NCBI GenBank assembly: GCA_001800315.1
Contig: MGVE01000016.1
Location: 52,444-116,443 of the forward strand
From: Elusimicrobia bacterium RIFOXYA2_FULL_47_53
Lineage (GTDB): Bacteria; Elusimicrobiota; Endomicrobiia; Endomicrobiales; XYA2-FULL-47-53
Length of the DNA: 64,000 nt
Reading direction: 5' to 3'
Positions 31,620-32,994 of this stretch are shown one piece after another (position 1 is the stretch's first letter; every line of letters begins with the position of its first letter). A program made the translations under genes and the position numbers. Below the pieces are notes generated by a model. That model had not been told where the DNA came from. It ran no database searches and saw only the letters and a list, made by a program, of their open reading frames with translations.

Positions 31620-31631
31620 CTCAATATCTTA

Positions 31632-31737
31632 AAGAAGCCGTCCCGGCTCACCTCCACCTTAAGGGAAGAGGTCATTAAATAAACTATATTATTATTTTAT
31701 TTTTTCGGGATGGCATTGCGCGCCAATCCCTTTTTTT
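31632..31737 (+). promoter_or_regulatory. infC leader with a putative transcription attenuator
   Basis: The leader holds three stems in order: AGCCG/CGGCT (near 31636), ACCTC/GAGGT (near 31651-31674), and an intrinsic terminator, GGGAT...ATCCC with GGC/GCC inside, followed by seven T (31707-31737). The terminator lies between the promoter and infC, so full-length transcription must read through it. This is the layout of attenuated translation-factor and ribosomal-protein operons. The ligand or effector is unknown. Confidence 0.7.
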
Positions 31738-31779
31738 ATTTCATTTGGCCGAAAGCAGCCGGCCAGGAGGAGGACTACC

Positions 31780-32292
31780 GTAGATAAGAGAGTTCGTATC
31801 AACAATTACATCAGAGTTGGACAGGTAAGGCTCATTGACGAAGACGGCACGCAGGTTGGCATTAAGTCCATTCAGGAAGCGCTGAAACTGGCTCAGGAGA
31901 GGGGAAAAGACTTAGTTGAAATCGCCCCGCTGGCCAACCCGCCGGTCTGCAAGGTACTGGATTTTTCAAAGTACCGCTACGAGGAAGACAAAAAAGCCAG
32001 GGACGCCCGCAAAAAGCAGAAGGGCGGCCATTTAAAGGAAGTCCGCGTAAGGCCGAGAATCTCAGAGCACGACCTTGAGATCAAACTGCGCCACGCCAAG
32101 GATTTCCTGGCTGAATTCAATAAAGTTCAGGTAACCATTGTATTCATGGGCAGAGAGAACCAGCACAAGGACCTCGGATACGCCCTCGGAGAGAAAATCA
32201 AAGGGTTACTTATTGAATACGGCGACCTTGAGGGAAGGCCTTCCTCTTTCGGAAACCGTATTATAATGACTTTCATACCGAAAAAGAAATAG
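31780..32292 (+). CDS. infC: Translation initiation factor IF-3, non-canonical start codon
   Basis: A 170-residue IF-3 with RINNYIR and RLIDEDGTQVGI at the N-terminus, LVEIAPLANPPVCKVLDFSKY in the middle, and the C-terminal domain (KEVRVRPRISEHDL, GREN, GRPSSFGNRIIMTF). It blocks premature subunit joining and checks start codons. No ATG, GTG or TTG lies in frame near the conserved N-terminus. A strong AGGAGGAGG (31765-31773) points to GTA at 31780-31782 as the start. Other bacteria also use rare codons (ATT, ATC, ATA) for infC, which lets IF-3 repress its own synthesis. GTA itself is unusual. Confidence 0.93.
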   Translation, partial: VDKRVRINNYIRVGQVRLIDEDGTQVGIKSIQEALKLAQERGKDLVEIAPLANPPVCKVLDFSKYRYEEDKKARDARKKQKGGHLKEVRVRPRISEHDLEIKLRHAKDFLAEFNKVQVTIVFMGRENQHKDLGYALGEKIKGLLIEYGDLEGRPSSFGNRIIMTFIPKKK

Positions 32293-32361: not shown

Positions 32362-32559
32362 ATGCCTAAAATGAAAAGCCACAGCGGAGCAAAAAAGAGA
32401 TTCTCTTTCACAAAAAACGGGAAGATTAAACACAAAAAAGCGGGGTTAAGGCACCTTATGTCGGGAATGAAACCGGCCCGCGGCAGAAAACTCCGCCACC
32501 AGGCGGTTCTTTCGCCCATAGAGACCAACGCTATAAAGAAATTTCTTCCTTACGGTTGA
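32362..32559 (+). CDS. rpmI: 50S ribosomal protein L35
   Basis: A 65-residue basic protein beginning MPKMKSHSGAKKRF, the family signature, with KHKKAGLRHLM and a C-terminal KKFLPYG. AGGAGG lies eight bases before the ATG at 32362; a TTG three bases earlier is also in frame. It lies between infC and rplT, the standard order. L35 is a late-assembly protein of the large subunit. Confidence 0.98.
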   Translation: MPKMKSHSGAKKRFSFTKNGKIKHKKAGLRHLMSGMKPARGRKLRHQAVLSPIETNAIKKFLPYG

Positions 32560-32628: not shown

Positions 32629-32994
32629 ATGCGCGCAAAGAGTGTAGTCCACACAAGACAGAAAAAGAAAAAATATTTTAGATTGGCAAAGGGTTATTAC
32701 GCCACAAAGAAAAACAGATGGCGCATGACTATTCAGCAGCTTGAAAAATCCCTCCGCTACGCTTACGAGGGAAGAAAGGACAAGAAAGGCGACTACAGGC
32801 AGATGTGGATCATGCGCCTGAACGCCGCCGCCAGGGAAGAGGGCCTTTCATACAGCCGCTTTATTGCCGGGCTTAAGAAAGCCAATGTTTCCATAGACCG
32901 CAAAATACTCGCCGACATAGCTGTCCGCGACGCGGCCGCTTTTAAACAGCTCGCTGAGCTCGCGAAGTCTCAACTCACCGCGGCGCAGAAATAA
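32629..32994 (+). CDS. rplT: 50S ribosomal protein L20
   Basis: A 121-residue protein with the long basic N-terminal helix of L20 (VHTRQKKKKYFRLAKGYYA) and the globular C-terminus (LNAAAREEGLSYSRFIAGLK). It binds 23S rRNA early in assembly and in several bacteria represses this operon by binding its own leader. AAGGAG precedes the ATG. The family usually has 115-120 residues. Confidence 0.98.
   Translation: MRAKSVVHTRQKKKKYFRLAKGYYATKKNRWRMTIQQLEKSLRYAYEGRKDKKGDYRQMWIMRLNAAAREEGLSYSRFIAGLKKANVSIDRKILADIAVRDAAAFKQLAELAKSQLTAAQK

Follow-up and report, generated by a model that had tools for sequence, protein, structure and literature searches.

Conserved non-NTG start codons of infC in an order of Elusimicrobiota and their probable use in feedback by IF3

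The infC gene of Elusimicrobia bacterium RIFOXYA2_FULL_47_53, encoding IF3, has a strongly supported GTA start codon in the 64,000-nucleotide stretch of DNA analysed here (the window), as judged from the sequence and its conservation among relatives. We consider it quite likely that infC is translated from this GTA with negative feedback by IF3, within an extended set of start codons and with an L20-type attenuator upstream; that GTA would serve the self-rejection of IF3 is the best-supported interpretation of its use. The features concerned are collected in Table 1.

Table 1. Features of the infC region, in coordinates of the window
Feature	Position	Strand	Basis
L20-leader-like element (probable transcription attenuator)	31626..31745	+	RF00558, 31 bits, E 0.0011
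Intrinsic-terminator-like hairpin GGGATGGC...CCAATCCC plus T run, 3' part of leader	31707..31737	+	sequence; covariation
infC Shine-Dalgarno AGGAGGAGG	31765..31773	+	direct reading; anti-Shine-Dalgarno duplex energy
infC start codon GTA	31780..31782	+	6 nt 3' of Shine-Dalgarno; position conserved in 69 genomes
infC (IF3)	31780..32292	+	170 codons plus TAG stop; TIGR00168, Pfam, solved IF3 chains
rpmI (L35), ATG start, 3' of infC in operon	32362..32559	+	sequence, ORF
rplT (L20), ATG start, putative leader ligand	32629..32994	+	sequence, ORF

The infC gene and its start site in the window

The start region of infC (31765-31800) reads AGGAGGAGG ACTACC GTA GAT AAG AGA GTT CGT ATC AAC, in which the spacer ACTACC (31774-31779) lies between the Shine-Dalgarno sequence and GTA. 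The frame is preceded by a TAA stop (31660-31662), is open throughout and ends at its own TAG (32290-32292), and its first in-frame ATG, GTG or TTG is the ATG at 32146, codon 123 counting from GTA. Codons 1-122 (31780-32145) contain none of the three triplets in frame, internal canonical starts thus being absent too, and an ORF listing with ordinary starts gave no infC ORF of 60 or more amino acids in the window. The sequence-only reading had described an infC frame devoid of canonical starts, in which a strong Shine-Dalgarno sequence puts GTA in the start position; both points were confirmed, with no in-frame ATG, GTG or TTG from 31660 to 32146 and AGGAGGAGG at the spacing given in Table 1.

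The product matched the NCBIfam model TIGR00168 (infC) with 187.5 bits, and both Pfam domains, IF3_N and IF3_C, were found, indicating a complete two-domain IF3; solved IF3 structures align with it from query residue 5-6 onward. From position and translation, we take the neighbours of infC to be thrS, rpmI, rplT, pheS and pheT, presumably in the usual order of this operon region. Three further long frames in the window have their first NTG deep inside; in two of them the Pfam domains begin past that NTG and the frames are ordinary, and no Pfam domain was found in the third.

Start codons within and outside the order

From the names of its relatives, the window's genome apparently belongs to the order Endomicrobiales of Elusimicrobiota, the largest family of which includes Endomicrobium and Endomicrobiellum, and its nearest named relative is Elusimicrobia bacterium RIFOXYA2_FULL_50_26 (G001; locus L146). 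In a tree built from IF3, L35, L20 and ThrRS columns, the order formed one clade with a support of 100. The triplet behind the infC Shine-Dalgarno sequence was GTC in 35, GTA in 18, ATA in 15 and ATC in one of the 69 genomes of the order (GTA or GTC in 53, ATA or ATC in 16), counts that overstate independence because of the relatedness among these genomes. The third base was A or C in 69/69, and neither NTG nor NTT ever occurred at this position. The four codons are used interchangeably in the order, GTC being the commonest and ATC appearing once. The codon before the start position varies and the codons after it are conserved; in genus g7 the Shine-Dalgarno sequence sits close to the start, many members having a spacing of 4 nt.

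If GTA or GTC were an ordinary valine codon, the true start would be an ordinary codon elsewhere, either an upstream NTG or a downstream ATG. In-frame upstream NTGs before the stop do exist in 38 of the 69 genomes, and in G001 and a second relative (G007) infC might instead start at a downstream in-frame ATG, which is codon 5 or 4 and lies some 17 nt away from the Shine-Dalgarno sequence. However, the upstream NTGs are at scattered distances, mostly 5' of the Shine-Dalgarno sequence and unconserved, and in 29 genomes the open infC frame has no ATG, GTG or TTG on either side of the start position. The window is among these 29, and the absence of any in-frame NTG from the upstream stop to codon 123 already contradicts an ordinary start there. 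Codon use at the start position is also unlike the valine and isoleucine usage of the same genes, and we regard an ordinary start elsewhere as very unlikely. The comparative support for GTA as the start of infC, as the sequence-only reading had proposed, is thus strong, comprising a conserved position, restricted codons, a strong Shine-Dalgarno sequence and the 29 genomes without an alternative.

Initiation in another frame followed by a frameshift into infC, or coupling to a small upstream ORF, might be suspected from a small ORF in the window that begins at ATG 31710 and whose TAA (31785-31787) overlaps the infC start. That ATG, however, lies inside the terminator hairpin and has no Shine-Dalgarno sequence, and 50 of the 69 genomes contain no ATG, GTG or TTG in any frame near the infC Shine-Dalgarno sequence, so that such a route appears extremely improbable. 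A sequencing error or a decayed gene, to which the draft state of the assembly (20 contigs) might point, is hardly credible, because the frame is intact, the gene is the sole infC copy found in a 2.41 Mb genome rated 100% complete, and the same start recurs in G001, the sister genome, as well as in independent genomes from other families. The sequence-only reading had named ATA in relatives as a sign of such an error; ATA does occur, but the error was not borne out, since GTA is common to the sister and to other families.

The start codon of infC is under constraint, as indicated by the sequence comparison. On a quick tree of 50 genomes of the order, made from the same four sets of columns, it changed at least 11 times and its third base never became G or T; at least nine third-base changes were counted, all between A and C. 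Among third-base changes, the first to be expected would be transitions, from A to G or from C to T. In the remainder of the same infC genes, valine is encoded by GTT (40%), GTC (9%), GTA (34%) and GTG (17%), GTT and GTG together making up 57%, and isoleucine by ATT (46%), ATC (13%) and ATA (41%). Because this usage is rich in third-base T and G, their absence at the infC start is not a matter of drift; its probability was about 2.5e-8 with each of 23 genus-codon units, used to allow for the non-independence of the genomes, counted once.

Outside the order, infC starts were read by eye, and single assignments may err. Among the other families of the class, we found ATA in one, GTG in one and ATG in two, and among the other families of the phylum ATC, ATT or ATA in some and TTG or ATG in others. 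About 60 infC genes from named genomes of other phyla started with ATA, ATT, ATC, ATG, TTG, GTG and, in one case, probably ACG. No GTA or GTC start was seen among these genomes or in the other Elusimicrobiota families read; within this limited sample, such infC starts were seen only in the order studied here. A search pattern for GTM starts in the DNA of different phyla was tried on the collected loci and abandoned, because its gap admitted other frames and false matches.

Several loci outside the order deserve mention in their own right. Loci L056-L065, L089-L092 and L101-L129, from other Elusimicrobiota families, have infC starting with TTG, ATG or GTG, an indication that these families lost start-codon feedback or did not gain it; with so many canonical starts in the phylum, such feedback is evidently dispensable. 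In L056-L058, which belong to family f9 of the class, GTG is apparently the start of infC and the only Shine-Dalgarno-like stretch is distant (~15 nt), and initiation looks unusual in another way. The ACG is that of an Omnitrophota MAG (L183, JAUWBJ010000006.1), where it stands behind AGGGGG-TTATTT; related Omnitrophota have ATA, and from the preceding stop to the conserved core this locus offers no better infC start candidate. Either a natural ACG start or a sequence error is possible.

Shine-Dalgarno strength, L20-like leader and initiator tRNA

Duplex energies of the 20 nt 5' of each start with the anti-Shine-Dalgarno sequence were compared between infC and the canonical-start controls rpmI and rplT. 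In the window's genome they were -11.8 kcal/mol for infC, -10.3 for rpmI, -8.0 for rplT and -3.9 for pheS, and the medians over the genomes of the order were -11.5, -9.3 and -8.2 kcal/mol for infC, rpmI and rplT, respectively. The infC Shine-Dalgarno sequence was stronger with p 7e-14 versus rpmI and 3e-18 versus rplT, values that ignore relatedness. Such a pairing of a weak codon with the operon's best Shine-Dalgarno sequence is required for a start that can be repressed, as opposed to one that is simply weak. Over-extended Shine-Dalgarno sequences are also discriminated against by IF3, according to a review (PMC4611024).

The same combination would also give a fixed output, and GTA or GTC could simply be a weak start that sets IF3 at a low level with no IF3 feedback. 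The canonical infC starts elsewhere in the phylum, by which feedback is not essential, are in keeping with this. On the other hand, an ATG with a weaker Shine-Dalgarno sequence would suffice for low output alone, whereas that of infC is the strongest of the operon, and through all its changes on the tree the start codon stays in the class that IF3 discriminates against, with a third base other than G. We regard a fixed weak start as unlikely, and favour repression of infC by IF3.

A leader resembling the L20 leader (RF00558) lies upstream of infC in the window and in 11 relatives, the latter scoring 28-44 bits; these scores and the 31 bits of the window fall below the gathering threshold of the family (58.7 bits). 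The consensus structure comprises 20 pairs, of which six were kept through changes on both sides (10 sequences), and in the terminator stem pairing was likewise kept through both-side changes in several pairs. In Elusimicrobiota the leader has a conserved core, AAAGAAGCCGTCCCGGCTCACCT, and, ahead of infC, a covarying terminator. Because the leader is conserved in the order and shows compensatory changes, this degenerate L20 leader probably provides a second, L20-dependent layer of operon control, as in Bacillus subtilis, for which L20-dependent control of the corresponding operon is described (PMC6097659, in excerpt).

The initiator tRNA of the window's genome (L267:1500-1575) is normal, with anticodon CAU, and its anticodon stem has A29:U41 in place of G29:C41, a replacement widespread in Elusimicrobiota. 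This pair could hint at a dedicated initiator tRNA reading GUA or GUC, by valine initiation or as a recoded initiator. Yet the tRNAs detected are all of ordinary kinds (copies of Met CAT and the standard Val tac, gac and cac), and A29:U41 also occurs in Elusimicrobiota whose infC starts with ATC, ATT, ATG or GTG, on which ground its link with the GTA start was rejected; a dedicated initiator seems exceedingly unlikely.

Proposed IF3 feedback and its relation to known systems

Canonical start codons have a 3' G, and others are discriminated against by IF3 (PMC4611024). In the mechanism that we propose, fMet-tRNA (anticodon CAU) would be held at GTA by the strong Shine-Dalgarno sequence despite the third-base mismatch and a first-base G:U pair, and IF3, which disfavours start codons with a third base other than G, would repress its own mRNA when plentiful and let it through when scarce, giving homeostasis. 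This would amount to the infC feedback loop of E. coli with GUA, GUC, AUA or AUC replacing AUU. Through the upstream L20-type attenuator, the infC-rpmI-rplT operon as a whole would in addition be controlled at the level of transcription.

The natural set of infC start codons is thereby widened from AUU, AUC and AUA to GUA and GUC for a whole bacterial order, and the conserved feature is a class, 'third base not G', rather than one codon, as IF3 discrimination predicts. The repeated switching between GTC, GTA, ATA and ATC forms a natural experiment on which codons are open to regulation by IF3, and the lack of third-base U poses a puzzle that can be tested. Gene callers that require ATG, GTG or TTG must mis-start or miss infC throughout the order. 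It is conceivable, though we rate it as improbable, that GUA and GUC starts extend beyond infC in this order; its translation apparatus would then tolerate start codons with third-base A or C at several genes, which would form an IF3 regulon, and third-base U would be specifically excluded for a mechanistic reason that is not known in E. coli.

The sequence-only reading had suggested that GTA is a new variant of infC autoregulation. A search of the open-access literature, with most subscription papers outside its reach, returned no report of a natural GUA or GUC infC start, in agreement with that suggestion; the codon set proved wider, and GTA less isolated, than had been supposed. The type of system is known; judging by the open-access literature, the novelty lies in the GUA/GUC codon set.

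Four known systems are comparable. The element upstream of infC resembles the L20 leader of infC-rpmI-rplT operons (Rfam RF00558) in its position, conserved core and terminator hairpin, and differs in its sub-threshold score and in that L20 binding is putative here. The recJ GUA initiation-codon mutant of E. coli, suppressed through IF3, is alike in having a GUA start tied to IF3 discrimination (Haggerty and Lovett 1997, as cited in PMC2268962, in excerpt), but it is a laboratory mutation as opposed to a natural, conserved start. The sigR gene of Streptomyces shares a conserved GTC start, repressed by IF3 and belonging to the class that IF3 discriminates against, and an extended Shine-Dalgarno sequence; it is, however, a different gene with no IF3 self-feedback, and infC of Streptomyces itself has ATC (PMC5472188). 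The closest parallel in gene and presumed regulator is infC of E. coli, which regulates itself by the start-codon discrimination of IF3 (PMC5472188). With its AUU start, and with AUC in Streptomyces and AUA in S. aureus, it has in common with the present case the gene, a non-NTG start and the Shine-Dalgarno sequence (PMC5472188, PMC13009471, PMC4611024), and IF3 is the presumed repressor of its own translation here too. Compared with infC of the E. coli type, this order has GUA or GUC in most of its genomes, with a first-base G and never a third-base U, and the GTA of the window falls outside the AUU/AUC/AUA set reported for infC, a set that is customary and not mechanistically required.
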